DNA of 64,000 nucleotides from an uncultured Halomicronema sp. (lineage in GTDB: Bacteria > Cyanobacteriota > Cyanobacteriia > Phormidesmidales > Phormidesmidaceae), in contig CALCCA010000073.1 of NCBI GenBank assembly GCA_937899725.1, positions 1-64,000 of the forward strand. The letters are read 5' to 3'. This document shows positions 582 to 17,942 of the stretch, one piece after another. A model generated the notes under the pieces. The model ran no database searches, had not been told where the DNA came from, and worked only from the letters and a program-made list of their open reading frames with translations. The position numbers and the translations under genes are program-made. Numbering within the stretch: position 1 is the first letter of the stretch; every line of letters starts with the position of its first letter.

Positions 582-2741
582 ATGCGGCTCCCTTTTCTAA
601 ATGACTTAAACCGACGCTTCCGCAAACTTGTCGCTGGCTACTGGACAGCCCGAATCTCCCGACTGCTTTGGGTTGTACTTGGTTTGGTATTGGTCTGCTG
701 GCTACAAGGTATGCCGCGCAGTCACGCCGCTACCACCATCAATATGGCTCGCCCCACGTGGGATACCGGCTGGTTTCAAGCGGAAGTTTATCGAGAGTTA
801 TTGACTCAGTTGGGCTACTCGGTGAATGCGCCCAAAACCCTGAGTAATGAGCAATTTTACGAACAAGCCGCCGCTGGCGAAATGGATCTGTGGGCGAGTG
901 GTTGGTTTCCGCTACACAATCGCTACTTAGAGCAGCCAGACATCGCTGGAACCGTAGAACCCGTCGGGTTTGAGGTGCCAGATGGCGCTTTGCAGGGGTA
1001 TCTGGTCGATAAAGCCACGGCTGAGCGATTCAACATTCAGAGCCTCGCCGACTTGGCCCGGCCCGAGGTGCTCGCCGCGCTCGATAGTGACGGCAATGGC
1101 AGCGCCGATCTGATTGGCTGCAATGCGGAGTGGGCCTGTGCCGAAGTCATCGACTACCACTTGCAGGAATATGGTCTGAACGATGTTGTTGACCACAGGC
1201 AAGGGGACTACGCGCCTTTGATGGCCGCCGCGATCGCTCGCCTGCGGCAAGGTGAGTCGATTTTGTTCTACACCTGGACGCCGAACTGGACGGCCAAAGA
1301 GCTGCCGCCCGGTGAGGATGTGGTATGGATCGAAGTCCCCTACGCCAGCCTGCCACCGGGTCAAAAAGCCCTGGAAAGTGAAACCGTCATGACCGGCATC
1401 ACTGGCTGCGTGGCGGATCCCTGCACATTAGGATTCCCGCGCAACGACATCCGAGCCGTGGCCAATAGTGAGTTTTTAGCGGCCCATCCCGCCGTGCGAT
1501 CGCTGCTCGAACAGGTCACCATTCCCTTAGCTGACATCGCTGCGCAAAACGCTCTCATGCTTTCCCGAGAGGGAGACGAAGACGATATTCGCCGCCATGC
1601 TCAGGACTGGATCGCGGCTAACCGCTCGACCGTGGATGACTGGTTGGCCACGGCCCGCGCCACGGGTGAGATTGCCCCCTCGGCGTCTCCCGAACCCGCC
1701 GCCACGCCCTTGGTGCCCCCGCCGCTCGACCCAGTTCGTATTGTGACCCAGCGCTTTGAACCCTTTGTGATCTATGAGGATCACGAATATCAGGGGTTTA
1801 GCATCGATCTCTGGCAGGCGATCGCCCGCGAACTCAACCTCCCTTACGAATTAGTGGGGGTTAACTCAGTGGCCAAACTGCTGGATGAAGTCGAGCGCGG
1901 GGCGGCAGATCTGGCGATCGCGGGCATTGGCATCACGTCTCAGCGCGAAGCCCGGCTGGACTTTTCTTACCCCTATTACGAATCCGGCCTGCAGGTCATG
2001 GTGCCCAGCGACCAGAGCGAACTAGGGAAACTGCTATCGGTGGTCGGCGCGGTGCTGCGATCGCCGCGACTGTACTACGGCATCGGCATTCTCATCCTCA
2101 TTTTGCTGATCGTCGCTCACCTCCTCTGGCTATCTGAGCGCAACCATAACAGTGAGTTTCCCGATGGGTATCTGCATGGCATTTGGGAAGCCTTTTGGTG
2201 GGCTGCGGTGACGGTAACGACGGTCGGCTATGGCGACAAAGTCCCCACCCGAGCCGCCGGTCGTTTCTTTGGCCTGATTTGGATGTTTTCGGGCTATTTT
2301 GTGTTTGCTTACTTTACAGCCAGCATTGCCACCACCTTTACCGTGCAAGAACTGCAGGGAGTGATCAACGGTCTCGAAGATCTGCCCGGCAAGCGCGTGG
2401 CCACCGTCGCCGAAAGCGCTGCCGCTGAGTTTCTGGATGGGCAGACCAATCTCCTATTTCGTAATTACAATACCCTCGAAGATTTGTACATCGCGGTGGA
2501 GGCCGAACAAGCGGTGGATGCCGTCGTCTATGATGCGCCGGTGTTGCAATATTTCGTTTCTCACCAGGGGCAGGGCAAATATCAAGTAGTGGGTGATGTC
2601 TTTAAATCCTTGAACTACGGTATTGCGCTGCAGCCGGATAGTCCTTATCGCGAGGCGATTAATGCCGCGCTGCTCAGACTGTATGAAACGGGCCAGTATG
2701 AGGATATTTATCAAGCGTGGTTTGGTTTGGGGCAAGGGTAA
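582..2741 (+). CDS. ProX-like betaine-binding domain fused to GluR0-type potassium channel
   Basis: A 719-residue membrane protein. The frame stays open upstream to about 327, but that part overlaps the IS630 remnant, and ATG 582 gives a normal basic N-terminus plus signal/anchor helix (residues 30-50). Residues about 50-365 match ProX, the glycine betaine substrate-binding protein: GWFPLHN, GCNAEWACAE and YTWTPNW carry W108, W184 and W232, spaced like the three-tryptophan betaine cage of E. coli ProX. After a proline-rich linker (365-383) comes a prokaryotic glutamate-receptor channel: S1 lobe (about 384-476, with the ligand-type Arg in SQREARLDFSYPYYESG), TM1 (498-519), pore loop with potassium filter TTVGYGD (546-552), TM2 (562-585) and S2 lobe (about 598-715, YDAPV Asp). 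Inferred role: ligand-gated potassium channel sensing an osmolyte. The parts are clear; the ligand and gating are not shown. Confidence 0.9.
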   Translation: MRLPFLNDLNRRFRKLVAGYWTARISRLLWVVLGLVLVCWLQGMPRSHAATTINMARPTWDTGWFQAEVYRELLTQLGYSVNAPKTLSNEQFYEQAAAGEMDLWASGWFPLHNRYLEQPDIAGTVEPVGFEVPDGALQGYLVDKATAERFNIQSLADLARPEVLAALDSDGNGSADLIGCNAEWACAEVIDYHLQEYGLNDVVDHRQGDYAPLMAAAIARLRQGESILFYTWTPNWTAKELPPGEDVVWIEVPYASLPPGQKALESETVMTGITGCVADPCTLGFPRNDIRAVANSEFLAAHPAVRSLLEQVTIPLADIAAQNALMLSREGDEDDIRRHAQDWIAANRSTVDDWLATARATGEIAPSASPEPAATPLVPPPLDPVRIVTQRFEPFVIYEDHEYQGFSIDLWQAIARELNLPYELVGVNSVAKLLDEVERGAADLAIAGIGITSQREARLDFSYPYYESGLQVMVPSDQSELGKLLSVVGAVLRSPRLYYGIGILILILLIVAHLLWLSERNHNSEFPDGYLHGIWEAFWWAAVTVTTVGYGDKVPTRAAGRFFGLIWMFSGYFVFAYFTASIATTFTVQELQGVINGLEDLPGKRVATVAESAAAEFLDGQTNLLFRNYNTLEDLYIAVEAEQAVDAVVYDAPVLQYFVSHQGQGKYQVVGDVFKSLNYGIALQPDSPYREAINAALLRLYETGQYEDIYQAWFGLGQG

Positions 2742-3244: not shown

Positions 3245-5194
3245 ATGAGTGCATCGGGCCAGTCGTATCGAGACGTTTTAATTACCTACCTGAAGCCTCA
3301 ACGTGGGCGAGTGACCTGGCTCGCGATCGCCCTATTGAGCAGCATTGCCCTGCAGGTGCTCAACCCGCAGATTCTGCGCTACTTCATCGATACGGTCATA
3401 GCCGGTGGACCGCAGCCAGTGTTGACGCTAGCCGCCTTGGGATTCGTGGCGATCGCCTGTCTGCGCCAGGGCTTAGAAATTATCGCCACCTATTGCAGCG
3501 AAACGGTGGCCTGGACGGCCACCAACGATCTGCGCCTGGACTTAGCCCATCACGTACTCCACTTGGATCTGGCCTTCCATAAAGCCCATACGCCCGGCGA
3601 ACTGGTCGAGCGCGTCGATGGTGATGTGGATGCCCTTTCTCGGTTCTTCTCGCAGTTCATTTTGCAAGTGGTCGGCAACGGCCTGCTGGTCATCAGCGTC
3701 TTAGGCATTCTCTGGATAGAAGATTGGCGTGCCGGGTTGAGCCTTAGCCTGTTTGCCTTGGCGGCTTTAGGGATTCTCGGTCGTTTGCAAGCCTTAGCCG
3801 TCCAGCCCTGGCGGGTTTATCGCCAGATCAGCGCGGAGTTCTATGGCTTCATCGCTGAATACCTGAGCGGTCTGGAAGATATTCGGGCCAATGGGGCCGT
3901 TGGCTATGTGATGCGCCGCTTCTATCAGCTCCTGCGACGCTGGCTGGCAGCCTTTCACAAAGCTCGTTTCACGAGTACTTTGCTATGGGGCGGCACGGTG
4001 GGGTTGTTTACCGTCGGCAACGCGATCGCGCTAACTGTCGGCGCCTATCTTTGGCAGCGTCAGGCCATCACCATCGGCACCGTCTATTTGCTCTTTTATT
4101 ACGCTACGCTGCTGCAAGATCCGATCGAACGCATTCGCGAAGAGTTAGAGCAATTTCAACAAGCGATCGCCAGCCTCCAGCGCATTCAAGATCTACTCAG
4201 CCATCACAGTCAGCTTCATCCCAGCGGCCAGGCCGTACTCCCCAACAGACCTCTGTCGGTCGAGTTTGATGGCGTTTGGTTTAGATATGAAAAGGACGGT
4301 GGAAAGCAGAGGGTAGAAGCTTTAGGGAACAGGGAGCAGGGAACAGGGAATAGGGAAGAGAAAGGGCCAAAGGCAGAAAACTCAAAATTCAAAACTCAAA
4401 ATACTCTCCGAGAAGGGCAAAGCCCTACAAAGTTCAAAACCGCAGTCTCTACAACTCCTTTATCCACCCACGCACTCCCCCACTCCCCCACTCCCCTACC
4501 CAACTACACCCTCCAAAACCTCACTTTCGATCTCCTCGCTGGTCAAACCCTCGGCTTGCTCGGTCGGACGGGGAGCGGCAAAAGCACTTTAGCCCGACTG
4601 CTGTTGCGGCTGTATGACATTCAACGCGGGCAAATTCGTTTAGGGGGCATTAACCTGGTCGAGATACCGTTGCGGGAACTGCCTCACCATATCGGCTTTG
4701 TCACCCAAGATGTGCAGCTGTTTCAAACCTCGGTGCGGCATAACCTGACATTTTTCAGTTCCCACATTTCCGATGAGGCCATTCTACAAACCCTTGCGGA
4801 ACTGGGACTCACCCCTTGGCTGGAAGGACTGCCTCAGGGCTTAGATACCGAACTGGGAGCCGACAGTGGAGGGCTTTCGGCGGGGCAGGCGCAACTTTTG
4901 GCGTTTGCCCGCGTGTTTCTAAAAGACCCCGGTCTGGTGATCTTGGATGAAGCTTCGTCACGCCTTGATCCATTAACAGAACAGTTGATTGAGCAGGCCG
5001 TGGAGCGGTTACTTGAGAATCGCACGGTCATTATCATCGCCCATCGGCTCAAAACTATAGAGCGGGCGGAGCAAATCTTGATTCTGGAACAGGGACGAAT
5101 AGTGGAATATGGCGATCGCGCTACTCTGGCCCAAGATCCTCACTCCCACTTCGCCAGTTTGCTGCAAACCGGAACAGCTACTGAGCCCCGCTAG
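3245..5194 (+). CDS. ABC half-transporter (exporter fold), first of two
   Basis: About 649 residues: six-helix ABC exporter membrane domain (about 10-300) then an ATPase domain. ATG 3245 is chosen; GTG 3227 in the same frame is possible. Walker A GRTGSGKST (K446), signature LSAGQ, Walker B LVILDEASS with catalytic E569, and switch His in IAHRLKT are all visible. Between the first ATPase strand and Walker A there is a roughly 70-residue insert made of translated intergenic repeat DNA (about 350-418). The gene follows operator A and precedes the first AraC gene by 73 bp. With its partner at 15978 it probably forms a heterodimer moving a siderophore or its iron complex across the inner membrane. 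Direction is open: the fold is shared by siderophore exporters and by the YbtPQ and IrtAB importers. Confidence 0.85.
   Translation: MSASGQSYRDVLITYLKPQRGRVTWLAIALLSSIALQVLNPQILRYFIDTVIAGGPQPVLTLAALGFVAIACLRQGLEIIATYCSETVAWTATNDLRLDLAHHVLHLDLAFHKAHTPGELVERVDGDVDALSRFFSQFILQVVGNGLLVISVLGILWIEDWRAGLSLSLFALAALGILGRLQALAVQPWRVYRQISAEFYGFIAEYLSGLEDIRANGAVGYVMRRFYQLLRRWLAAFHKARFTSTLLWGGTVGLFTVGNAIALTVGAYLWQRQAITIGTVYLLFYYATLLQDPIERIREELEQFQQAIASLQRIQDLLSHHSQLHPSGQAVLPNRPLSVEFDGVWFRYEKDGGKQRVEALGNREQGTGNREEKGPKAENSKFKTQNTLREGQSPTKFKTAVSTTPLSTHALPHSPTPLPNYTLQNLTFDLLAGQTLGLLGRTGSGKSTLARLLLRLYDIQRGQIRLGGINLVEIPLRELPHHIGFVTQDVQLFQTSVRHNLTFFSSHISDEAILQTLAELGLTPWLEGLPQGLDTELGADSGGLSAGQAQLLAFARVFLKDPGLVILDEASSRLDPLTEQLIEQAVERLLENRTVIIIAHRLKTIERAEQILILEQGRIVEYGDRATLAQDPHSHFASLLQTGTATEPR
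4320..4500 (+). repeat. Intergenic-type repeat DNA translated in frame inside ABC gene
   Basis: The stretch holds GGGAACAGGGA-type tandem units, CAAAATTCAAAACTCAAAA-like sequence and CCCCCACTCC-type units, all typical of non-coding repeats between cyanobacterial genes. Here they keep the frame open and add about 60 low-complexity residues in a surface loop between conserved ATPase motifs. Confidence 0.7.
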
Positions 5195-5211
5195 TCTAAG
5201 GCAACAACATA

Positions 5212-5228
5212 TTGAGAAGAATTCTCAA
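5212..5228. promoter_or_regulatory. Fur-like box upstream of first AraC gene
   Basis: TTGAGAA-GAA-TTCTCAA is a perfect 7-3-7 inverted repeat, 40 bp before the AraC start. It is one mismatch from the 7-1-7 form TGAGAATNATTCTCA, close to Fur boxes. A 17-bp sequence matching at 14 positions sits at 10139-10155 before the second AraC gene. Fur binding is inferred. Confidence 0.5.
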
Positions 5229-5267
5229 CTGCTGCTAAAATTTTGTGCAGCGATCGCCCCAACCCCC

Positions 5268-6263
5268 ATGACCATCACTCTCTCTCAGCAAGACCATCAG
5301 GACTTATTCGATGAGTCTCAACACCGTAGTCAATCTGATGACACAGAGTCTTGCGATGTGGTTGTGCCTTATCCAGAGCAGTTGGGGCAGGGATCCACAA
5401 GAGAGATTCAACTGCGAGAGGGGATGGTGCTGGAGATTGCCAACTTTCGACTTCATCAGGATGTGACATTGGAAGTGCCAGAACGATCGCATCCCCTGGA
5501 ATTTGAGTTTTCAGTGGTTCGAGAGTATCCGCGGCAGCGAACGGGTTCTGACTTAGAGGATTACTTCTTTTCGGGGAGCGGCATGGCCGCTCGGAAGTTT
5601 TGTCAATATCTGGCAGGCACAGAGGTCCTCGATGTGAGTTTTCATTTAGAGCCGACAGTGTTTTGTAACTGGATGGGCGATCGCTTAATGAAAGCTCCCC
5701 TCTGTGTCCAGCAATTAGTTAGAGCAACCCATCAAGGGCGTCACACCCAGTCCATGCCGATGCCCCTGGCAATGCGAACGACTGTACAGCAAATTTTGCA
5801 GTGTCCTTATAGCGGGTTAACTCAGCAAATCTATCTAGAAAGTAAGGTTTGGGAGTTGATGGCTCTGCACATGGAGCAGGTGCTGAACACACATCCAGGC
5901 GATCGCGATGCCAGCCGCATTAAGCCAGACGACCTTGAGCGCCTTCACCATGCCAAAGAGATTCTCAGGAATCAGCTCAGCGATCCACCGTCTCTCAACA
6001 GTCTGGCCCGTCAGGTTGGACTCAACGAATTCATCCTCAAACAGGGATTTCGCAGCGTGTTTGGCACCACGGTATTTGGCTGTTTACACCATTACCGCAT
6101 GGAATATGCCAGAGAATTACTGGCAGACGGAGGTTTCAATGTGAGTGAAGTAGCTCGGCAAGTGGGATTTACCAATCGCGGTCACTTTGCCGCTGCCTTT
6201 CGCAAAAAGTTTGGCACCAACCCCAAAGCCTATGCCCAAGCTATTCAGCAGCAATCTGAGTAG
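5268..6263 (+). CDS. AraC-family regulator (PchR-like), first copy
   Basis: 331 residues. The start is ATG 5268, because the sequence from just before it aligns with the start of the paralogue at 10188. The C-terminal third (about 230-325) is an AraC double helix-turn-helix ending in VSEVARQVGFTNRGHFAAAFRKKFG, split by the family's usual linker helix. The N-terminal part is an effector domain like PchR, the siderophore-responsive activator of Pseudomonas. A Fur-like box precedes it, and the stop codon is followed 4 bp later by operator B of the TonB receptor gene. Inferred role: activates the island when iron is short and its siderophore is present. The first 45 residues are nearly identical to the paralogue and the rest of the sensor is divergent, so the two may recognise different ligands. 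Confidence 0.9.
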   Translation: MTITLSQQDHQDLFDESQHRSQSDDTESCDVVVPYPEQLGQGSTREIQLREGMVLEIANFRLHQDVTLEVPERSHPLEFEFSVVREYPRQRTGSDLEDYFFSGSGMAARKFCQYLAGTEVLDVSFHLEPTVFCNWMGDRLMKAPLCVQQLVRATHQGRHTQSMPMPLAMRTTVQQILQCPYSGLTQQIYLESKVWELMALHMEQVLNTHPGDRDASRIKPDDLERLHHAKEILRNQLSDPPSLNSLARQVGLNEFILKQGFRSVFGTTVFGCLHHYRMEYARELLADGGFNVSEVARQVGFTNRGHFAAAFRKKFGTNPKAYAQAIQQQSE

Positions 6264-6265
6264 AA

Positions 6266-6300
6266 ATTCCCGTTCTGGATCAGAAAATTCCGACTAGGGA
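6266..6300 (+). promoter_or_regulatory. Tandem 21-bp-spaced operator, site B
   Basis: Half-sites TCCCGTTCTGG (6268) and TCCGACTAGGG (6289) stand 21 bp apart, each after AAATT/AAAATT and each followed by ATC(A). This is the weakest pair in the first half-site but has the same geometry as sites A, C and D. It lies between the AraC stop and the TonB receptor gene. Confidence 0.6.
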
Positions 6301-6342
6301 TCAAAGCGATCGCCCACACCCCCATGCCTGCTCCTAAGATAC

Positions 6343-6363
6343 TTGAGAATCAATAGCAATTAG
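6343..6363 (+). promoter_or_regulatory. Conserved promoter-proximal element before TonB receptor
   Basis: A 21-bp stretch starting TTGAGAATCAATAGCAA matches 16 of 21 positions with 11247-11267 before the second receptor, at nearly the same distance from the AraC half-sites (54 and 57 bp). A looser TTGAGA...TAGCAA version occurs at 15922. It may be core promoter plus a degenerate Fur box. Confidence 0.4.
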
Positions 6364-6441
6364 AGATTCAGAGCGATGCCGGAAGCCGCAACCGCTTTCT
6401 GGTGCAGGTCTGAATCTCTGCGGTAGGAGTGGGAAGCGATA

Positions 6442-9015
6442 ATGAATTTATTGTGGCAATCAACGGGGTTGACGGGTATTTTGCTGGTGCTGGCGGCGGG
6501 GGCAGCGGGTGCCGAAGCTGAGTCAGAGCATCGTTCCCAGAGAGCAATCGCAGAAGCGCCACGTGGCAGAGTGATCAACCTTCAGGAAAGTTCAGAAGAG
6601 ACGGGGTCCCCGTTGAACCAGACAGAGCAACCAGCAACGACTGTGGATGCATGGCTAGCCCAGATGGAAGCGGTGATCGTCCAGATTACGGGCGTACGGG
6701 TCGAAGCAACTGAGGTGGGATTGCAGGTTGTTTTAGAAACCACTGCTGGAAACCTGCCTGAGCCCGCCACCATGACATCAGGAAACGCCCTAATTTTAGA
6801 GATTCCTAACGCGGCGCTGGCGCTGCCCGGTGGCAACGAGTTGCTGGAGTTTGAACCAGTTGAGGGTATTGCTCTGGTACAGGTGACGCAGTTGGCAGAT
6901 AACCGAGTGGAGGTCGCCATTACGGGAACTGATGCCATCCCTTCGGCGGATATTGCCGCCGGTGCAGGGGGCCTGACACTGAGCGTGATACCGGGGCTAG
7001 CCCAAGCCGTCGAAGAGGAAGAGGCAATTCAGGTGATAGTGACGGGGGAAGAGGATGCAGGATATGCGGTGAATGATGCTACGACCGCCACGCGGACCAA
7101 TACGCCCCTGCGGGATATCCCCCAATCCATTCAGGTGATTCCCCAGCAGGTGATTGAAGATCAGCAAGTGACTGAACTGCGAGATGCGTTGCGCAACTTT
7201 AGTGGAGTTCAACAGGGCAATACGGTTGCGGGTACATCTGAATTCCCAATTATTCGAGGCTTTCAGCAATTTAACTTCTTCCGAGATGGGTTTAGGGAAA
7301 CTTTAAATACTCGTAGAGATGTTGCCAATATCGAACAGATTGAACTTCTGAGAGGCCCAGCTTCTGTTTTATTCGGGACGTTAGAGCCGGGTGGAATTGT
7401 TAACTTAGTTACTAAAAAACCCTTGTCAGAGCCGTTTTATGAGGCCAGCCTGCGGGGCGGAAACTTGGGCTTTTTCCGCCCGACGATTGACCTCTCAGGC
7501 CCGGTAAACTCAGAGGAAACGGTCCTTTATCGGCTGAATGCGGCCTATGAACGCAGCGATGGCTTTCGCGATTTTGATCAAGGTATTGAGCGTGCCTTTA
7601 TTGCACCCGTTATCGCTTTAGAACTAGGAGATCGCACCGACTTGAGTTTCGACTTTGAATACCTGAGTGATGAACGCCCCTGGGACCGAGGGCTGGTTGC
7701 TTTGGGTGAAGAAGTTGCCGATATTCCGTTGGATCGTGTTTTGGGAGAATTAGATGACCGTGCTGCTACTGATGCCTTACTGGTTGGATATAGACTGGAG
7801 CACCGCTTCAATGAAGATTGGACATTGCGAAACCGGTTTCGCTTTTCCTTTAATGAACGCTCGGTGCAAAATGCTGAACCTGGCAGCCTGAACGAAGAAA
7901 CGGGTGTGCTCACGAGAGTCTGGGAAGATAGCGAGAGCGAAGCAACTATCTACGAGCTGCAGACAAATCTATTAGGAAGTTTTACTACCGGCTCAATTCG
8001 GCATAACTTGCTTATAGGTATTGATTTGCTGCGAGATACATTTGACTTTACAAATAGAAGTGGTGATGCTCCAAGCATTAACATCTTTGAGCCAGTGTAT
8101 GGGTTTTCTCGACCAGCCCGAGATGAACTGTCTGGAGCTTTCATATTCGAAACTGAAACAGATTCTTTGGGAATTTATCTACAAGATCAAATTACCCTGC
8201 TCGATAATTTAAAGCTGCTGCTAGGAGGTCGACTTGATATCGTTGATGGCTCAACGGTGAGTGGAGATGATATTGAAACAACCCGATCTCAACAGCAGGA
8301 TGAGGCTTTTAGTCCACGGGTTGGCATTGTCTATCAGCCAATTGAGCCTTTATCGCTCTACGCCAGTTTTAGCCAATCCTTTGCACCCAATTCTGGCGTT
8401 CAATCCGATGGCTCACCGCTTGAGCCAGAGCGCAGTACTCAATATGAAGTTGGGGTACGGGGCGAATTTTTTGATGATCGACTGATTGCCAACCTAGCCG
8501 TGTATGAAATTACTAAACGCAACGTTGCTACCACCGATCCAGATGATACAAACTTCAGCATTCCCGTGGGTGAACAGCGGAGCCGAGGCATTGAGCTAGA
8601 TGTCATTGGCGAGATTCTTCCGGGCTGGGATGTGGTTGCCTCCTACGCCTACACCGATGCGGAAATTACTGAAGACAACGACTTGCCGGCAGGAAATCAG
8701 CTGACTGGCGTGCCCTTCCACGCTGCTAGCCTATGGACAAGCTATGAAATTCAGCAGGGTAATTTACAGGGTTTGGGATTTGGTGTCGGCTTATTCTATT
8801 CCGGTGAACGCCAGGGAGATTTAGCGAACTCGTTTGAAGTCTCCGATTATTTACGGACAGATGCAGCGCTCTTTTACCGTCGAGATAATTGGCGAGCCGC
8901 GATCAATGTCAGGAACCTGTTTGATGTGGATTATATCGAAGCCACTCAGCGGCGCAACCGGATCAATCCGGGCGCGCCATTGACGGTGATTGGCTCATTT
9001 TCAATTGAGTTTTGA
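6442..9015 (+). CDS. TonB-dependent siderophore receptor with AMIN domain
   Basis: 857 residues. A GGGAAG ribosome site supports ATG 6442. A signal peptide (1-24) is followed by an AMIN domain (about 60-160, envelope or peptidoglycan binding), a TonB-box-like segment (AIQVIVTGEED, near 193), the plug domain (TPLRDIPQSIQVIPQQV to RGPASVLFG, about 215-315) and a 22-strand-type barrel ending in the outer-membrane signature IGSFSIEF with terminal Phe. This is the FhuA/FpvA-like class for ferric siderophores, and the AMIN fusion is usual in cyanobacteria. The binding-lipoprotein gene starts 15 bp after the stop, so the two are one operon, under operator B. The paralogue at 11295 shares its whole architecture, so the pair arose by duplication of an AraC-receptor-lipoprotein cassette. 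Confidence 0.93.
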   Translation: MNLLWQSTGLTGILLVLAAGAAGAEAESEHRSQRAIAEAPRGRVINLQESSEETGSPLNQTEQPATTVDAWLAQMEAVIVQITGVRVEATEVGLQVVLETTAGNLPEPATMTSGNALILEIPNAALALPGGNELLEFEPVEGIALVQVTQLADNRVEVAITGTDAIPSADIAAGAGGLTLSVIPGLAQAVEEEEAIQVIVTGEEDAGYAVNDATTATRTNTPLRDIPQSIQVIPQQVIEDQQVTELRDALRNFSGVQQGNTVAGTSEFPIIRGFQQFNFFRDGFRETLNTRRDVANIEQIELLRGPASVLFGTLEPGGIVNLVTKKPLSEPFYEASLRGGNLGFFRPTIDLSGPVNSEETVLYRLNAAYERSDGFRDFDQGIERAFIAPVIALELGDRTDLSFDFEYLSDERPWDRGLVALGEEVADIPLDRVLGELDDRAATDALLVGYRLEHRFNEDWTLRNRFRFSFNERSVQNAEPGSLNEETGVLTRVWEDSESEATIYELQTNLLGSFTTGSIRHNLLIGIDLLRDTFDFTNRSGDAPSINIFEPVYGFSRPARDELSGAFIFETETDSLGIYLQDQITLLDNLKLLLGGRLDIVDGSTVSGDDIETTRSQQQDEAFSPRVGIVYQPIEPLSLYASFSQSFAPNSGVQSDGSPLEPERSTQYEVGVRGEFFDDRLIANLAVYEITKRNVATTDPDDTNFSIPVGEQRSRGIELDVIGEILPGWDVVASYAYTDAEITEDNDLPAGNQLTGVPFHAASLWTSYEIQQGNLQGLGFGVGLFYSGERQGDLANSFEVSDYLRTDAALFYRRDNWRAAINVRNLFDVDYIEATQRRNRINPGAPLTVIGSFSIEF

Positions 9016-9030
9016 ATCTAAGCTGAGTCT

Positions 9031-10032
9031 ATGCTGAATCGTTTCTGGCATCATTTTCTACTGTTTTGGCTGGCGGTTTTGACAGTGATCGCAATTCCTG
9101 CCTGTGATATTAGTTCTCAGCGCCAGACTGACTCTGGCGAACTGTCAGCTCAAACCGATACACAGCTATCTCCCTGTCACGTGGTTCAGCACGCAATGGG
9201 TGAAACCTGTGTGTCAATGCACCCCCAGCGCATTGCTTTGCTAGATTTTCACAGTGCCGGTAGTCTCCTCTCGTTGCAAGTAAAGCCAATCGGCGTACCT
9301 AACAACATTTTGCCAGCGTTTGCAGATGAGCTAGCTGACGTAGAAAGAGTGGGAAATAGCGATCAAATTAACATGGAGAAGCTACTGGCGCTACAGCCCG
9401 ATTTGATTTTGGTGAGCTCATGGAATGCTAGCGAAAACTACGATCAACTTTCCCAAATTGCCCCTACTGTTGTAGATGACTCTAAGACAACAGGAGATTG
9501 GCAAAAAAGATTTGCACTACACGCTGAAGCGTTAGGAATGTCTGAAAAGGCTGATCAGTTGATGAAAGACTATGAACAGCGCCTTGCAGAGGTTAGAGAT
9601 CGGCTGGGCGCAGAGTGGGTTGAGAATACTAAAATTTCCCTGGTGCGGGTCGGATCGGATCTCAGCAACGTTGCCCTTTATTTAAAGAATTCTTTTGGCG
9701 GTACCATCCTTGAAGACATTAGCTTTTCTCGCCCAGCTAGCCAGGATGAAGGCACGATCGATCAGCCGCCCTTTCAAAAACAGATCAGCAAAGAACGGCT
9801 TCAGGAGGCGGATGGCGATGTCATCTTTGTCTGGTCATTTGGCGCAACCCCAGAAATTGCCCAAGCCAATCAAGCCGGGCTGGCGCAAATGAAAACCGAT
9901 CCGCTTTGGCAACAGCTAAACGCAGTTCAGCAAGGCAACGTCTATGAAGTTGGGCACTACTGGAACTCTGGTAGCCCCCTAACGGCGAATCTGGTTTTGG
10001 ATGATTTGCTCGAATACTTAGCTGACAAGTGA
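9031..10032 (+). CDS. FecB-type iron-siderophore binding lipoprotein, first copy
   Basis: 333 residues. A lipoprotein signal peptide ends in IPAC (Cys about 26), then comes a periplasmic-binding fold of the FecB/FhuD class joined by one long central helix. The N-terminal motif SPCHVVQHAMGETCV, with two cysteines, is shared with the second copy. It would capture the ferric siderophore after passage through the receptor and pass it to an inner-membrane transporter. No FecCD-type permease or FecE ATPase is present in this window, so the partner is either elsewhere or one of the exporter-fold ABC halves. The start ATG lies 15 bp after the receptor stop. Confidence 0.9.
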   Translation: MLNRFWHHFLLFWLAVLTVIAIPACDISSQRQTDSGELSAQTDTQLSPCHVVQHAMGETCVSMHPQRIALLDFHSAGSLLSLQVKPIGVPNNILPAFADELADVERVGNSDQINMEKLLALQPDLILVSSWNASENYDQLSQIAPTVVDDSKTTGDWQKRFALHAEALGMSEKADQLMKDYEQRLAEVRDRLGAEWVENTKISLVRVGSDLSNVALYLKNSFGGTILEDISFSRPASQDEGTIDQPPFQKQISKERLQEADGDVIFVWSFGATPEIAQANQAGLAQMKTDPLWQQLNAVQQGNVYEVGHYWNSGSPLTANLVLDDLLEYLADK

Positions 10033-10138
10033 TTATCGATGTTGAGGAGTTTCTGTGAGGAGCGGGTCAATAGGGTAAGCAATGGCAACCCCACCACGCC
10101 GATGTAATCGGACGTGCTTGACTTGCCATCCTGCTTAG

Positions 10139-10155
10139 TTGAGAATAACTTTCAA
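10139..10155. promoter_or_regulatory. Fur-like box upstream of second AraC gene
   Basis: TTGAGAATAACTTTCAA matches 14 of 17 positions of the inverted repeat at 5212-5228 and sits at a similar distance (33 bp) from the AraC start. It is a less perfect dyad. Role inferred. Confidence 0.45.
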
Positions 10156-10187
10156 CTAAAGCATCCTCAGAGATCGCCCCAATCCCC

Positions 10188-11177
10188 ATGACCATCACCC
10201 TCTCTCAGCAAGACCATCAGGACTTATTGGATGAGTCTCAACGCCGTAGTCAATCTGATGACACAGAGGCTTGCGATGTGGTTGTGCCGTATCCAGAGCA
10301 GTTGGGTCAGGGTGAATGCCGCATGATTGACCTCCGTGAAGGGGTAGACCTGTTCATTGGTGATTATCAGCTGCACGACAATATCGTGACGGTATTACCA
10401 GAGCGATCGCATCTCATAGAGTACGTGTTTTACCTGACGGGCAAAGGGTTTCAGCCGAATGCGATCGCGGCGGGTCAATATGCTCTATACGGTAGCGGCA
10501 TGGCGCCGGCTGAAATCGGCGGGGATTCGGCGGATGAACCGATTTTAGAGGTCAACGTTCATATTCCACCCGCCGTCTTAAAAACCTTTTGGGGAGAGTC
10601 TTTCGACTTGGCGGGTGGGGGACTGGAGCACCTGTTTCGGTCCACTGAGCAGCCTTATTACGAACGGCTAGGTGCGACCACTGCGACCATGCGCACAGCG
10701 CTGCACCAGCTGTTGCACTGCCCGTTTACTGGCATCATCAAAAAAACTTATTTAGAAAGTAAAGTATGGGAACTCATGGCCCTGCTGCTTGACCAAGAGT
10801 TACAGCGACGAGAGGGCAAACCTATCCTGAATCCATTGAAATTGGATGATATTGAGCGCATCCACCAAGCGAAAAAGATTCTGCTACAGCGGCTAGATAA
10901 CCCACCCTCTTTGCTTAGCCTGGCTCGCCAGGTGGGGTTGAATGACTGTGCGCTCAAGCGAGGGTTTCGACAGGTCTTCGGTGAAACGACCTTTGGCTAT
11001 TTACACAACCACCGGATGGAAACCGCCCGCCAGTTACTGATCGAGGGTGAAGTCAATATTACCGAAGCGGCTCGTCACGTGGGCTTTGCCAACCGCAGCT
11101 ATTTTGCCGCCGCGTTTCGAAAAAAATACGGTGTCGCGCCGAGTGAATACCTCCGTCAGACCAGAAAATCCGGCTAG
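10188..11177 (+). CDS. AraC-family regulator (PchR-like), second copy
   Basis: 329 residues. It starts with the same MTITLSQQDHQDL opening as the copy at 5268; about 145 bp around the two starts differ at only a handful of positions, after which the sensor domains diverge strongly. The C-terminal double helix-turn-helix (ITEAARHVGFANRSYFAAAFRKKYG) is well conserved, so both proteins could bind the same TCCGNCTAG operators. The stop codon lies inside the first half-site of operator C. It has its own upstream gap of 155 bp with a Fur-like box. Inferred role: siderophore-responsive activator of the second receptor cassette and perhaps of the whole island. Confidence 0.9.
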   Translation: MTITLSQQDHQDLLDESQRRSQSDDTEACDVVVPYPEQLGQGECRMIDLREGVDLFIGDYQLHDNIVTVLPERSHLIEYVFYLTGKGFQPNAIAAGQYALYGSGMAPAEIGGDSADEPILEVNVHIPPAVLKTFWGESFDLAGGGLEHLFRSTEQPYYERLGATTATMRTALHQLLHCPFTGIIKKTYLESKVWELMALLLDQELQRREGKPILNPLKLDDIERIHQAKKILLQRLDNPPSLLSLARQVGLNDCALKRGFRQVFGETTFGYLHNHRMETARQLLIEGEVNITEAARHVGFANRSYFAAAFRKKYGVAPSEYLRQTRKSG

Positions 11178-11200
11178 CGTTCAAACTTTTCCGCCCAGCA
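11167..11200 (+). promoter_or_regulatory. Tandem 21-bp-spaced operator, site C
   Basis: Half-sites TCCGGCTAG (11169) and TCCGCCCAG (11190) are 21 bp apart and preceded by AAAA and TTT tracts. The first overlaps the stop codon of the second AraC gene. It precedes the second TonB receptor gene. Confidence 0.65.
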
Positions 11201-11246
11201 TTCACCCCTAGTGATCACAGCGAAATCACCTTTGATAAGCTCTCAA

Positions 11247-11267
11247 TCAAGAATTAATTGCAATAAG
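11247..11267 (+). promoter_or_regulatory. Conserved promoter-proximal element before second receptor
   Basis: Matches 16 of 21 positions with 6343-6363, located 28 bp before the receptor start. See that entry for its placement relative to the operator. Confidence 0.4.
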
Positions 11268-11294
11268 GGCGCGATGCGCTGGGTGTGAGGACGA

Positions 11295-13817
11295 ATGTTG
11301 AATCGACTATCGCAAACGCTGGCGATCGCTAGCCTGCTTTCTGTACCAATACTGCCTGCCTGGGCAGAGGCGGAAACCGAATCAACTGCAGCGAGGCCAC
11401 TGGAAACGAGTCCGGCGATCGCGGAACAACCTGCTACCACTGTCAGCGAGTGGCGGGCCCAAGTGGAATCTGCTTTAGTGCAAATCACGGCAGTTCGTTT
11501 GGAATTCACAGAGTCCGGTTTGCAGGTCGTGTTAGAAACGGCGGCTGGTGAGCTTGCCACCCCGACGACCCAGACAGTCGGTAATGCGCTGATTGCCGAT
11601 ATTCCCAATGCGGCGTTGGCGCTGCCAGAGGGCGGCTCATTTGAGCAGTTTGCGCCTGCCGAGGGCATTGCCTTGGTAAGTGTTACCAACGAATCCGGAG
11701 ATCAGGTGCGGATCGCCATTACCGGTACCGATGCTCCCCCCGTTGGGGCAGTGACGGCAACTGGCTTGGCCGTGACTTTGGGTGAGGTTGTGGCCGGAGC
11801 TGAGGATGACGCCATTCAAGTCGTGGTGACGGGGGCAGGCGACGAGGGTTACGCTCCGTCAAGCGCCAGCACAGCGACGCGCACCGATACCCCCTTACGC
11901 GATATCCCTCGCTCGATTCAAGTCGTCCCTCAGCAGGTGTTTGAAGATCAAGCGGGCAACCGCATCGACGACGCCACCCGCAACGTCAGCAGTGTGGTGC
12001 AGAGTGGGGGCTTTGCCGGTACCGCCGATCAGTTGGCCATTCGCGGCTTTGCCACCTTCGAGATTTTTCGCGATGGCTTTCGCGATCCGGCTGCTGGGGG
12101 CATTTTTGAGACGTCTAACATTGAGCAGTTTGAGGTATTAAAGGGGCCAGCCTCTGTGCTCTACGGCAACACCGAGCCAGGCGGCATCATCAACCTGGTG
12201 ACAGAGCAGCCTTTACCCTTCCCCAACTATGAGTTTGATCTGCAGGTAGGTAGTTTTGGTTTTTTGCGCCCGACGGTTGACCTATCGGGGCCATTGACCG
12301 CATCTGCTGATGTGCGCTATCGAGTCAACTTAGCCTATGAGCGCTCTGACACGTTTCGAGATTTTGATCAGGACGTGAGACGGGGATTTATTGCTCCCGT
12401 CCTAGCGTGGGATATTAGCGACGACACGAGCCTGACCGTCGATTTCAGCTACTTGGACGATGAGCGCCCCTTTGACCGAGGGTTTATTGCCACTGGACGA
12501 GACATCGTTGATGTCCCTCTAGACCGCATTTTTGGTGAGCCGGACGACTTTCGAGAAATCGAAGAAACGGCTTTTGGCTATCGCCTAGAGCACGAGTTCA
12601 GCGATAACTGGAGCATTCGCAACGCCTTCCGACTGGTCTCCGCTGAGCAGCTTGACTTTCGAGCTGAGCCGCTGGAGTTGGACGAAGACACCGGTATCTT
12701 GACCCGTAACTTTCGCTCCAATGACGATACCAGTGAAAGCTATGCCTTCCAAACACAGCTAGAGGGGCAATTTGCCACGGGCTCCATTGAACATAATCTC
12801 CTGCTGGGCATCGACCTCGATCGCACAACGTTTGCCGGCACCCAAAGCCGTGCCCCCGATGGGCTAACCCCAGATATCAACATTTTTGATCCTGTTTATA
12901 ACCAAGTAATTCCTCCGACCTTCGATCAGCTGACCAATGTTGTACGCGACAGCATTTCTCGGACTGATAGTCTAGGGATTTTTGCTCAGAATCAAATCGA
13001 TCTGACGGACAACTTTAAGCTGCTGTTAGCCGGACGTTGGGACTTTGTTGAGCAGCGTAATGACAACAATTTGGGAGACGATTCAATTCAGTCTCCTGAT
13101 GCGTTTAGCCCCTCTATTGGACTGCTCTATCGTCCGATTGAGCCGCTCTCAATTTATGCCAACTATGCGCGCTCGTTTCAGCCCAACTTCGGTACCGCCG
13201 TCGATGGTTCATTTTTAGAACCGGAGCGAGGCACCCAGTACGAAATTGGACTGCGGGGTGAACTCTTTGACGGCAATCTGATTGCGAACTTAGCGGCCTA
13301 CACGATTACCAAAACCAACCTGGCGACGACTGATCCTGACAATCCTGACTTTTCGATTCCCGTTTCTGAGCAGCGCAGCCGGGGCATTGAGCTAGATATC
13401 GCGGGCGAGATTTTGCCGGGTTGGAATGTGATTGCCTCCTATGGCTATATCGATGCCGAATTTACAGAAGAAAATTTTGGGGTAGAGCCGGGTGGTCGAA
13501 TCCAAAACATCCCAGAAAATACCTTCAGCTTGTGGACGACCTATGAAATTCAGACCGGTAGCTTGCAAGGGCTGGGGTTGGGGGCCGGTGTGTTTTATGT
13601 CGGCGAGCGAGCGGGTGATTTTGAAGACACGTTTGATTTGCCGAGCTACTGGCGCACCGATGCCACTGTGTTTTACAGTCGCGACAATTGGCGCGCTGGT
13701 CTCAATGTGCAAAATTTGTTTGATGAGCGCTACTTCAAGTCCAACAACTTTGGCCGCGTCGCCATTGAGCCAGGAGAACCGCTAACCATTGTGGGCACCT
13801 TCTCGATCGATTTTTGA
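11295..13817 (+). CDS. TonB-dependent siderophore receptor with AMIN domain, second copy
   Basis: 840 residues. GAGGACGA just before ATG 11295 is a good ribosome site. The domain order equals the first receptor: signal peptide (1-24), AMIN domain (about 45-140), TonB-box-like AIQVVVTGAGD, plug (TPLRDIPRSIQVVPQQV to KGPASVLYG) and barrel ending IVGTFSIDF. Sequence identity to the first copy is high in the plug and barrel strands but the extracellular loop regions differ, consistent with another ferric siderophore being taken up. It forms an operon with the lipoprotein at 13835 (17 bp gap) and the DUF1636 gene. Confidence 0.93.
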   Translation: MLNRLSQTLAIASLLSVPILPAWAEAETESTAARPLETSPAIAEQPATTVSEWRAQVESALVQITAVRLEFTESGLQVVLETAAGELATPTTQTVGNALIADIPNAALALPEGGSFEQFAPAEGIALVSVTNESGDQVRIAITGTDAPPVGAVTATGLAVTLGEVVAGAEDDAIQVVVTGAGDEGYAPSSASTATRTDTPLRDIPRSIQVVPQQVFEDQAGNRIDDATRNVSSVVQSGGFAGTADQLAIRGFATFEIFRDGFRDPAAGGIFETSNIEQFEVLKGPASVLYGNTEPGGIINLVTEQPLPFPNYEFDLQVGSFGFLRPTVDLSGPLTASADVRYRVNLAYERSDTFRDFDQDVRRGFIAPVLAWDISDDTSLTVDFSYLDDERPFDRGFIATGRDIVDVPLDRIFGEPDDFREIEETAFGYRLEHEFSDNWSIRNAFRLVSAEQLDFRAEPLELDEDTGILTRNFRSNDDTSESYAFQTQLEGQFATGSIEHNLLLGIDLDRTTFAGTQSRAPDGLTPDINIFDPVYNQVIPPTFDQLTNVVRDSISRTDSLGIFAQNQIDLTDNFKLLLAGRWDFVEQRNDNNLGDDSIQSPDAFSPSIGLLYRPIEPLSIYANYARSFQPNFGTAVDGSFLEPERGTQYEIGLRGELFDGNLIANLAAYTITKTNLATTDPDNPDFSIPVSEQRSRGIELDIAGEILPGWNVIASYGYIDAEFTEENFGVEPGGRIQNIPENTFSLWTTYEIQTGSLQGLGLGAGVFYVGERAGDFEDTFDLPSYWRTDATVFYSRDNWRAGLNVQNLFDERYFKSNNFGRVAIEPGEPLTIVGTFSIDF

Positions 13818-13834
13818 CGACATTAAGGTGAGCT

Positions 13835-14830
13835 ATGAAGCAGAAATTGCGTAAATGGCTAGTGGCGATCGCAGCGATCACAGCTTTGGTCGTATCCGTT
13901 GCCTGTGGGGGAGGTTCCTTGCAGCAATCCCTACCGGCAACAGGGGAGGATACGACTTCGCCCTGTCACATGGTTAGCCATGCAGCGGGTGAAACTTGTG
14001 TGCCTGATAATCCGCAGCGAGTCGTTGATTTGGTCGGGCTCGATTATGCGTTGAGCTTAGGCATCAAGCCGATCGCCAGTGACGGCCTATATCAAGCCAA
14101 TCTTTACCTAAAGGAAGAGACTGACGGGATTGAAAATGTTGGCAAGAATGATGTTCCCAACCTTGAGCGGATTGTAGAACTCAAGCCAGATCTCATCATC
14201 GGCGGCAGCTATGTCGATGTGAACTATCAGCTTTTGTCCGATATTGCGCCCACAGTGATCCTTCCGTATGACTATAGCGGCCAGTGGAAAGACGTCTTTA
14301 TGCAGTATGCGGCAACACTTGGGCTGACGGAGAAAGCTGAGCAGGTGATGGCGCGATACTACGATCACACCCAAGAATTTCAGCAGCAAATGGGATCTCG
14401 CGCCGCTGAAACCGAGGTTTCAATCGTGCGAGTGTATCCGACTCAGACCAATCTCTATCTCAAAGAGTCGTTTCCCGGCACCGTCATCGCTGATGTGGGC
14501 CTATCGCGTCCGCCTTCTCAAAATTTCACGGCCTCGGACGCCCAAACCGTCTTTGGCAATTACATTCAATACACAATCAGTCAGGAAAAAATACCAGATA
14601 TCGATGGTGATGTCCTGTTTCTGTGGACGTTTGGACATCGCGATGACATTGCTCAAGATGCGAAGTCCGCCAAGGAAGCGCTCAAAGCCGACCCGCTGTG
14701 GTCAACGCTATCGGCGGTGCAACAAGACCGAGTCTATGAAGTTCCCGGTGAATATTGGATTGGCGACGGCCCTATGGCGGCCAATCTAATCATTGACGAC
14801 CTCTTCAAATATCTGATTGAGGAGAACTGA
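13835..14830 (+). CDS. FecB-type iron-siderophore binding lipoprotein, second copy
   Basis: 331 residues. AAGGTGAG precedes ATG 13835. The lipoprotein signal ends VSVAC (Cys about 24). The body is a FecB/FhuD-class binding protein with the paired-cysteine motif SPCHMVSHAAGETCV, as in the first copy, and the typical EKIPDIDGDVLFLWTFG segment of the C-lobe. It is the third element of the second cassette and is followed 4 bp later by the DUF1636 gene. It likely hands iron-siderophore to an inner-membrane transporter that is not adjacent. Confidence 0.9.
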   Translation: MKQKLRKWLVAIAAITALVVSVACGGGSLQQSLPATGEDTTSPCHMVSHAAGETCVPDNPQRVVDLVGLDYALSLGIKPIASDGLYQANLYLKEETDGIENVGKNDVPNLERIVELKPDLIIGGSYVDVNYQLLSDIAPTVILPYDYSGQWKDVFMQYAATLGLTEKAEQVMARYYDHTQEFQQQMGSRAAETEVSIVRVYPTQTNLYLKESFPGTVIADVGLSRPPSQNFTASDAQTVFGNYIQYTISQEKIPDIDGDVLFLWTFGHRDDIAQDAKSAKEALKADPLWSTLSAVQQDRVYEVPGEYWIGDGPMAANLIIDDLFKYLIEEN

Positions 14831-15977: not shown

Positions 15978-17942
15978 ATGCCCTCTATCTGGCAACTGTT
16001 CTGGCAAATGATTTGCTATGCCCAACGCCTCTACTGGGTCGATACCCTGCTGTGGCTGTTGATTCTGGGGCTGCCCGCAGTGCCGGGGTTGCTGATTCAT
16101 GAATTTTTTAACAGCCTCACAGTTCCCTCGCCGGTGGCGTCACCGTGGGTATGGATTGGGCTGCTGTTGGCCACCGGCTTGGCCAGGGTTATCGCGATTT
16201 TTGTGGGACGCATTACGAAAACCCAGCATCGGTTTTTGATGAGCGGGTTGATTCGCCACAATTTGTTGTCCGAACTGTTGAAACGTCCGGGGGCAGAGTT
16301 AGCCACTGGGGGAGCTAACGGGCAAACTTCATCACCGGGTGAAATCCTCAGCTACTTTCGGGATGATGCCTTCCAAATTGAGGATGTGGTGGTGGGCACC
16401 AACGAAATTCTGGCCGCTGGGGTGTTTGCGATCGCGTCGATGGCCCTGCTCCTTAGCGTGAATGCCACCCTGACGCTATTGGTGTTTCTGCCGCTATGTG
16501 CGATAGCTATCCTCGTTCACCAGGCCGAACACCGCCTCAAACGCTATCGCCGCGATAGTCGTCAGGCCACGCAAAAGGTCACCGGTCTGATTAGCGAAAT
16601 GTTCACTGCTTGCCAAGCCGTCAAGGTCGCTGGGGCCGAGGTTCAGATGTTGGCCGAATTGAGGAGGAGGTGCGATCGCCGTCGCCAAAAGATGGTGCGT
16701 GACCAAGTCTTTAGCGCCCTCCTCGACTCTGGTTTTGAAAACATGGTCAGCTTGGGCACTGGCCTGATTTTGCTCGTTATCGCCCACAGCCTCAACACTC
16801 AGACAACGTTCACCGTTGGCGACTTTGCCCTATTCATTTACTACCTGACCTTCGTCACCTATTTTCTTGGCTTCTTAGGTAGCTTTGTCGCCATCACCAA
16901 GCAAAGTGAAGTGTCGTTTGAGCGCATGGCTGGACTTGTCGGAGAGTGGGAGAGCGAGAGTGCAGGAGACCCTAACCCACCTACCCATCCACCCACTTCC
17001 TCATCCACCGTTCGGCTGGCTTCGACGATGAGCTCAGCCGAATCGAGTGCTCACGCCGAAGCCCATCCACCCATCCACCCTCTCACATACCCCCATCCCC
17101 TCCATCTCAAACCCGTTCTCGGCACTCAATCCCCATTGCCGCCACTGCCACCCTTAGTTCGGGCTGAACCGCTACAGACATTGCGGGTAGACAGTTTGAC
17201 TTACCAATATCCTGGCAGTCAGAACGGCATCACTGATATTAGTTTGACGCTTCAGCGCGGTAGCCTAACCGTCATTACCGGGCCAGTCGGTGCGGGTAAA
17301 ACTACCCTGCTGCGAGTGCTTTTGGGATTGCTGCCTAAGCAAGCCGGGCGGCTGTATTGGAATGAGCAGGAAATCGCCGCGCCGGGTAATTTTCTCGTGC
17401 CCCCTCAGGCGGCTTATACGCCTCAGATTCCGCAGTTGTTTAGCACCTCACTGCGGGACAATTTACTACTCGGGATAGACGTAGAAACCCCCGAAAAATT
17501 GCAAGCAGCGATCGCCACCGCCGTCTTTGAGCAAGATATCGCTGCCATGCCCGATGGCCTTGAAACCATTGTTGGCACCCGAGGATTTCGGCTTTCGGGC
17601 GGCCAAAAGCAACGGACTGCCGCCGCCCGCATGCTGCTCCGTCAGCCTGAACTCTTGGTCTTTGATGATCTTTCCAGCGCATTAGATGTTGAGACCGAAC
17701 ACCGTTTATGGCAGCGGTTATTTGATATGAGAAGGGAAGACCCGCCCATCCGCCCAGATGCAGCAATCATCCATCCCCCCATCTCCCCATCCTCCCATTC
17801 CCCTACCTGCCTGGTAGTCTCCCACCGGCCTGATGTCTTAGCACGCGCTGATCAGGTGATTTTGTTGGAAGCTGGAAAGATAAAATTCTTAGGTGATTAC
17901 TTGGCGTTTCAGCAACGATTTTTCGACCGCAACGGCGATTGA
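15978..17942 (+). CDS. ABC half-transporter (exporter fold), second of two
   Basis: 654 residues: six-helix membrane domain (about 20-310) plus ATPase. Walker A GPVGAGKTT, signature LSGGQKQR and the switch His in VVSHRPDVL are intact, but Walker B reads LLVFDDLSS, with D564 where the catalytic Glu should be. That defect is typical of one partner in heterodimeric ABC exporters, and the partner at 3245 has the Glu. Two low-complexity inserts of translated repeat DNA lie at about residues 328-395 and 586-612. No clear ribosome site is seen before ATG 15978. Operator D and the shared regulon argue that the two half-transporters act together on a siderophore. Confidence 0.85.
   Translation: MPSIWQLFWQMICYAQRLYWVDTLLWLLILGLPAVPGLLIHEFFNSLTVPSPVASPWVWIGLLLATGLARVIAIFVGRITKTQHRFLMSGLIRHNLLSELLKRPGAELATGGANGQTSSPGEILSYFRDDAFQIEDVVVGTNEILAAGVFAIASMALLLSVNATLTLLVFLPLCAIAILVHQAEHRLKRYRRDSRQATQKVTGLISEMFTACQAVKVAGAEVQMLAELRRRCDRRRQKMVRDQVFSALLDSGFENMVSLGTGLILLVIAHSLNTQTTFTVGDFALFIYYLTFVTYFLGFLGSFVAITKQSEVSFERMAGLVGEWESESAGDPNPPTHPPTSSSTVRLASTMSSAESSAHAEAHPPIHPLTYPHPLHLKPVLGTQSPLPPLPPLVRAEPLQTLRVDSLTYQYPGSQNGITDISLTLQRGSLTVITGPVGAGKTTLLRVLLGLLPKQAGRLYWNEQEIAAPGNFLVPPQAAYTPQIPQLFSTSLRDNLLLGIDVETPEKLQAAIATAVFEQDIAAMPDGLETIVGTRGFRLSGGQKQRTAAARMLLRQPELLVFDDLSSALDVETEHRLWQRLFDMRREDPPIRPDAAIIHPPISPSSHSPTCLVVSHRPDVLARADQVILLEAGKIKFLGDYLAFQQRFFDRNGD
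16965..17160 (+). repeat. Repeat DNA with hairpin, in frame inside second ABC gene
   Basis: CCCACCTACCCATCCACC-type units flank a hairpin with arms TTCGGCTG (17011-17018) and CAGCCGAA (17035-17042). Both are of the kind found between cyanobacterial genes. Here they encode a Pro/His/Ser-rich loop between the membrane domain and the ATPase. Confidence 0.65.
17735..17812 (+). repeat. Second in-frame CCATC-type repeat in ABC gene
   Basis: A run of CCCATCC/CCCCATC units encodes a Pro/Ser-rich loop between the D-loop region and the switch His strand of the ATPase, a position that is short in ordinary ABC proteins. Confidence 0.6.

Follow-up and report, generated by a model that had tools for sequence, protein, structure and literature searches.

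A ProX glycine-betaine-binding domain fused to a GluR0-type potassium channel, with BCCT carrier genes beside it in most noncyanobacterial bacteria that carry it

A gene joining a ProX-type glycine-betaine-binding domain to a GluR0-type potassium channel lies near the start of contig CALCCA010000073.1 (GCA_937899725.1), assembled from an uncultured Halomicronema sp., a salt-mat cyanobacterium. The window analyzed here is the first 64,000 nucleotides of that contig, read on the forward strand. The open reading frame (582–2741, stop codon included; this and all features of the gene described below are on the + strand) encodes 719 residues without an internal stop, and the original prediction, which had placed both domains in one polypeptide, had its coordinates right. 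The start ATG at 582 is kept in a relative that is 96% identical, and the upstream DNA is alignable from window position 487. The translation begins with a signal peptide (aa 1–49, 582–728), recognized from a hydropathy peak and the start kept in relatives, which has a hydrophobic core at aa 23–41 and a cleavage-like ...RSHA/ATT sequence.

Because the contig ends 581 bases from the gene, the upstream neighborhood of the fusion is out of view. A fragment of an IS630-type DDE_3 transposase occupies the contig end just upstream (76–369, −), and in the close relative G389 an IS5-like transposase stands at the corresponding place (L062:199–999). Downstream is an ABC exporter adjoining an iron-uptake-like cluster. 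In the window lineage the fusion gene is isolated and the flanking genes vary among relatives; a functional tie to the window neighbors was accordingly rejected. The iron-uptake-like genes form a duplicated block (5109–14830) with two AraC-type regulators whose N-termini are near-identical, two TonB receptors, and two siderophore-binding-protein-like genes. Both ABC exporters of the window carry a low-complexity insert between the membrane and ATPase domains (4290–4510 in the first; within ORF 15978–17942 in the second), reading GNREQGTGNREE... and HPPTSSST...HPPIHPLTYP, which resembles a translated intergenic repeat; in G389, the first exporter carries a diverged insert at this position.

The N-terminal half is a ProX/OpuAC glycine-betaine-binding domain (aa 50–362, 729–1667), identified by Pfam (OpuAC, 6.6e-47 at aa 52–345), by the NCBIfam ProX equivalog NF008334 (343.5 bits against a cutoff of 215, above the curated threshold over the whole domain), by comparison with E. 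coli ProX (PDB 1r9l, E 1.5e-62), and by Foldseek. The betaine contacts tabulated for E. coli ProX, W65/H69/W140/G141/C142/W188 (PMC10087775), align with W108/H112/W184/A185/C186/W232, and the window protein therefore has exactly the E. coli contacts except for G141A. An alignment of 53 uninterrupted fusions from Cyanobacteriota, Actinomycetota, Deltaproteobacteria, and single MAG contigs of other phyla displays Trp at both W108 (903–905) and W184 (1131–1133) in every sequence, while W232 (1275–1277) is Trp in 46, Phe in 6, and Tyr in 1, so the cage is aromatic in 53/53. The carboxylate contact H112 (915–917) is His in 46/53 and Gln, Phe, Gly, or Val in the other seven; C186 (1137–1139) and C180 are invariant. 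Free ProX proteins keep the same cage, so part of this conservation is inheritance, and cage conservation is of no use for telling fused from free ProX; judged from the alignment, the fused ProX has simply kept its cage despite approximately 50% divergence.

Residues 386–716 constitute a GluR0-type channel of S1-TM1-pore-TM2-S2 architecture, in which Pfam SBP_bac_3 is split around Ion_trans_2 and which, among solved structures, is closest to the Nostoc glutamate-receptor homologue 2pyy. The S1 lobe of the ligand-binding domain (1737–2051; SBP_bac_3 and Lig_chan-Glu_bd) carries R455 (1944–1946), found in 53/53 fusions. It is followed by TM1 (aa 495–519, 2064–2138; a predicted helix with a hydropathy peak at aa 500–518), the pore helix and selectivity filter (2169–2237, within Ion_trans_2), TM2 (aa 558–593, 2253–2360; a predicted helix with hydropathy peaks), and the S2 lobe (2367–2729; SBP_bac_3 to aa 715) with D651 (2532–2534), present in 52/53. 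R455 and D651 both line up with 2pyy and with the GluR0 probe sequences given in PMC2950845. The filter is TTVGYGD (aa 546–552), of which TVGYGD (aa 547–552, 2220–2237) is intact in 52 of the 53 fusions. Thus, the original reading of the gene, as ProX along the whole N-terminal half with W108, W184, and W232 as the betaine-binding tryptophan cage and a complete GluR0-like channel behind it, held throughout. In the fusion of Haloactinopolyspora alba (L095:3815–5947), FGAGN replaces VGYGD in the pore, and this channel is probably not K+-selective for that reason. The two halves are joined by a variable proline/alanine-rich linker (aa 363–385, 1668–1736; pLDDT < 50). Counted from aa 361 to 387, it spans 19–40 residues across the fusions, with 26 in the window protein and a mean conservation of 46%.

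An AlphaFold2 model built from the 53-row alignment of fusions had a mean pLDDT of 79 (ProX mostly 80–95; the linker and parts of the pore low) and a pTM of 0.64, at which neither the linker nor the relative placement of the halves is fixed. Foldseek retrieved the ProX-betaine crystal structure 1r9l as the top match (TM 0.90 by target length, 35% identity), followed by AMPA-receptor LBD-TMD chains; cage geometry was judged from the former match together with the residue alignment. Past the signal peptide, two transmembrane helices and a pore helix are predicted, and none more. Given these two helices and the topology of GluR0, in which the N- and C-terminal domains lie outside (PMC13099474), both ProX and S1S2 would be periplasmic.

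With Synechocystis GluR0 (slr1257) and the prokaryotic Group 1 channels, the fusion has in common a signal peptide, the S1-TM1-P-TM2-S2 order, a K+ filter, the S1 arginine, the S2 aspartate, and the expected periplasmic ligand domains. Unlike GluR0 (Ger 2010, PMC2950845; PMC13099474), it adds a complete ProX of about 310 residues N-terminal to S1; stand-alone GluR0 frames in our cyanobacterial survey measure about 360–440 residues, and OpuAC is absent from the domain architectures listed in a 2010 survey of prokaryotic glutamate receptors (PMC2950845). The fold and full betaine cage are those of E. coli ProX, the binding protein of ProU/ProVWX (1r9l), but the ProX of the fusion is covalently tied to an ion channel and serves no ABC transporter. 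A role as a ProU component was rejected, as the host has a separate ProVWX operon on another contig, with its ProX in another clade; no proV or proW lies beside the fusion in the window lineage. OpuA-type binding protein-permease fusions likewise join a betaine-binding domain to a membrane protein, although there the membrane part is an ABC permease rather than an ion channel.

The order of an N-terminal binding-protein-like domain, a ligand-binding clamshell, and a pore, along with the LBD-TMD fold match, is that of the AMPA, NMDA, and delta receptors. Unlike eukaryotic ionotropic glutamate receptors (iGluRs), the fusion keeps a K+ filter, is without a third transmembrane helix, and has a separate fusion origin. 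The N-terminal domain of eukaryotic iGluRs is a LIVBP-like ATD, a family other than ProX/OpuAC, and the parallel drawn in the original prediction, with its proviso of a different N-terminal family, is apt. Membership in the eukaryotic iGluRs themselves was rejected because the N-terminal domain is ProX, the transmembrane helices number two, and there is no M4 helix. A text search of the literature, mostly outside subscription papers, found no published fusion of ProX or another betaine-binding domain to a channel. Both halves are known families; their combination, its spread, and the BCCT linkage described below appear to be undescribed in the literature searched.

Four other cyanobacterial genomes contain the fusion, at identities of 96, 79, 77, and 56%, the last of them belonging to another genus of the same family. 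Within the window's genus, it was found in five of six genomes, one copy being disrupted by a change of frame within the pore helix; this copy (G386, L060:8371–10607; L070) comes from a two-contig assembly and reflects an assembly error or a decaying gene. Among 386 cyanobacterial genomes, a full-length match occurred in two only, both of the window's genus, the others keeping ProX and GluR0 separate. A wider scan of 84,980 species genomes with the motifs TWDTGWF and [IV]WEAFWW yielded about 50 full-length fusions, nearly all in a single uninterrupted frame; the coding region is split between frames by apparent frameshifts at L070, L120, and L122. The carriers are scattered among unrelated bacteria, with salt-lovers among the named species. 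They include cyanobacteria (Halomicronema, Leptolyngbyaceae, and Symploca), actinobacteria (Acidimicrobiia, Nitriliruptorales, Salsipaludibacter albus, and Haloactinopolyspora alba), deltaproteobacteria (Desulfosarcina-like and others, including an Olavius algarvensis symbiont), and single MAG contigs labeled Chloroflexi, Kiritimatiellae, and Bacteroidetes, labels that derive from binning and may be wrong. The class Acidimicrobiia has the fusion in 12 of 247 genomes. No second fusion turned up when the phyla of three carriers were surveyed (350 genomes for the Chloroflexi MAG, 345 for the Olavius symbiont, and 289 for the Kiritimatiellae MAG), and the distribution is therefore patchy.

Both halves are under purifying selection while the linker is relaxed. 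For pairs with unsaturated synonymous change, dN/dS was 0.10 for ProX, 0.05 for the channel, and 0.39 for the linker (G000/G389), and 0.07, 0.055, and 1.03, respectively (G170/G387). In the channel tree, a single branch (87/92; 88% of bootstrap trees) separates all fusions and two contig-truncated copies from the stand-alone GluR0s of cyanobacteria, actinobacteria, and others. The ProX tree places every fused domain in one group (98/95), which adjoins the BCCT-side free ProX of actinobacteria and the ProX of locus L126 (joint branch 92/86); the ProU-type ProX of the window genome lies far away, in a cyanobacterial clade (100/100). The simplest reading would be one fusion event followed by horizontal spread, with which both trees, read without a root, are consistent.

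The strongest functional clue is genomic linkage to betaine carriers, a feature invisible to the original prediction. A BCCT gene (PF02028; four were scanned, with E values of about 1e-184 to 1e-189) lies within 4 kb of the fusion at 41 of 54 loci overall and at 41 of the 48 outside Cyanobacteria. These linked loci belong to Actinomycetota, Deltaproteobacteria, and the single Chloroflexi and Kiritimatiellae contigs. The carrier gene is divergent from the fusion in 25 cases, upstream on the same strand in 7, convergent in 5, and downstream on the same strand in 3. Eight fusion genomes (G448, G449, G450, G452, G453, G454, G460, and G463) contain a single BCCT gene genome-wide, which is the neighbor of the fusion. 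By our estimate, the chance that a given gene lies within 4 kb is approximately 0.2–0.3% in a 3–6 Mb genome. Although the actinobacterial cases are not independent of one another, coincidence is an unlikely source of a linkage seen in several lineages and orientations. Four actinobacterial genomes chosen around stand-alone GluR0 contain zero BCCT genes and hence give a thin base-rate control. The cyanobacterial fusions, in the window's genus and elsewhere, have no adjoining BCCT. Many actinobacterial loci also encode a free ProX alongside the BCCT carrier. Three of them (L092, L098, and L113) display the order BCCT, ProX, fusion on one strand, with a four-base overlap between BCCT and ProX. 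The two genes directly adjoin at L083:796–3683 (−), L092:1959–4936 (+), L098, and L113. Binding proteins are not usually paired with BCCT carriers, and the arrangement may represent binding-protein-assisted secondary transport.

Bacteria under salt stress exchange K+-glutamate for compatible solutes, and how the availability of betaine is coupled to the release of K+ is an unsettled question, which a betaine receptor mounted on a K+ pore beside an importer would answer by linking the two directly. We favor, with some confidence, the reading that external glycine betaine, probably in concert with an amino acid at S1S2, gates or modulates the K+ channel of the fusion, and that the protein coordinates K+ flux with betaine uptake. 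The protein would be a GluR0-type K+ channel, presumably tetrameric, in the cytoplasmic membrane, with a distal periplasmic domain predicted to be a working ProX glycine-betaine receptor. Betaine would shut the ProX clamshell and thereby bias S1S2 so that the pore is opened or modulated, either alone or jointly with a coligand at S1S2, an amino acid and probably glutamate. K+ would then move once betaine arrives outside, presumably in the direction that allows betaine to replace K+-glutamate as the osmolyte. In most noncyanobacterial carriers, the BCCT importer beside the fusion suggests a switch trading potassium for betaine; in the window lineage, the fusion would act beside, not inside, the ProVWX transporter. 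We infer betaine gating, as did the original prediction, and cage conservation and BCCT linkage strengthen the case. In Synechocystis, GluR0 provides a plasma-membrane route for K+ and influences cell volume after a KCl upshock, and the authors of that work suggest that it is activated by glutamate released as K+-glutamate gives way to compatible solutes (PMC13099474); a betaine receptor on a GluR0-like channel would report the replacement solute. A switch from KCl to betaine has been documented in a halophile (PMC7042295).

The same mechanism could instead serve another quaternary or sulfonium ligand, such as proline betaine, choline, TMAO, or DMSP, which we regard as unlikely. Such a cage generally recognizes quaternary ammonium groups, and the replacement of H112 by Gln, Phe, Gly, or Val and of W232 by Phe or Tyr, each in 7/53 fusions, would fit a shifted specificity; against this, the window protein has the E. 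coli ProX contacts, G141A excepted, and a characterized marine Synechococcus ProX prefers glycine betaine alone (PMC10087775). We judge it improbable, too, that ProX is an assembly or spacing domain with vestigial binding and that the S1S2 amino acid alone gates the pore. The N-terminal domains of AMPA receptors retain a clamshell without ligand gating, and both the near invariance of the S1S2 arginine and aspartate and the non-His residues at position 112 agree with such a role, but the three aromatic cage residues in all 53 fusions, the strong purifying selection on the ProX half, and the BCCT linkage do not. Quite unlikely in our estimation is a ProX that binds betaine without gating, tethering or concentrating it for BCCT or ProVW while the channel provides a coupled K+ path. 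BCCT and free ProX genes do adjoin the fusion, and the L101 fusion (L101:3121–6362) is convergent with two ProW-like stretches and a ProV-like gene, with a truncated BCCT at the contig start; yet no BCCT carrier is known to require a binding protein, and the cyanobacterial fusion is under selection though no transporter is linked to it. That two adjacent genes were merged by sequencing or assembly error is extremely improbable despite the split frames of L120, L122, and G386, since the halves form a single frame in close relatives (one copy being broken in the pore), 53 uninterrupted fusions come from independent assemblies, isolates among them, the fusions cluster in each half's tree, and recurrence in four cyanobacterial genomes and dozens elsewhere excludes chance and frame error.

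Beyond a glycine-betaine-gated channel as such, we tentatively propose, at somewhat less than even odds, a family of such K+ channels spread horizontally in salt-exposed and host-associated bacteria. With BCCT and often a free ProX, the fusion would form an osmolyte-exchange module of two or three genes, sensing incoming betaine through ProX and outgoing glutamate through S1S2 and releasing K+, and would have arrived independently, in bacteria, at the three-layer architecture of animal glutamate receptors (N-terminal domain, ligand domain, and pore). A bacterial protein layered like the neuronal glutamate receptors, and carrying a receptor domain whose type of ligand is known, would be useful for learning how a pore is controlled by a distal clamshell and offers a possible scaffold for solute sensors.

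Two other arrangements of ProX were observed. In the Chloroflexaceae MAG locus noted above (L126:330–2465, +), whose ProX takes a tree position near BCCT-linked ProX proteins, the domain is fused to an amino-acid-type SBP_bac_3 without a channel. In Marinimicrococcus flavescens, at least six ProX-like genes or gene parts lie in tandem (L147:3878–10114).
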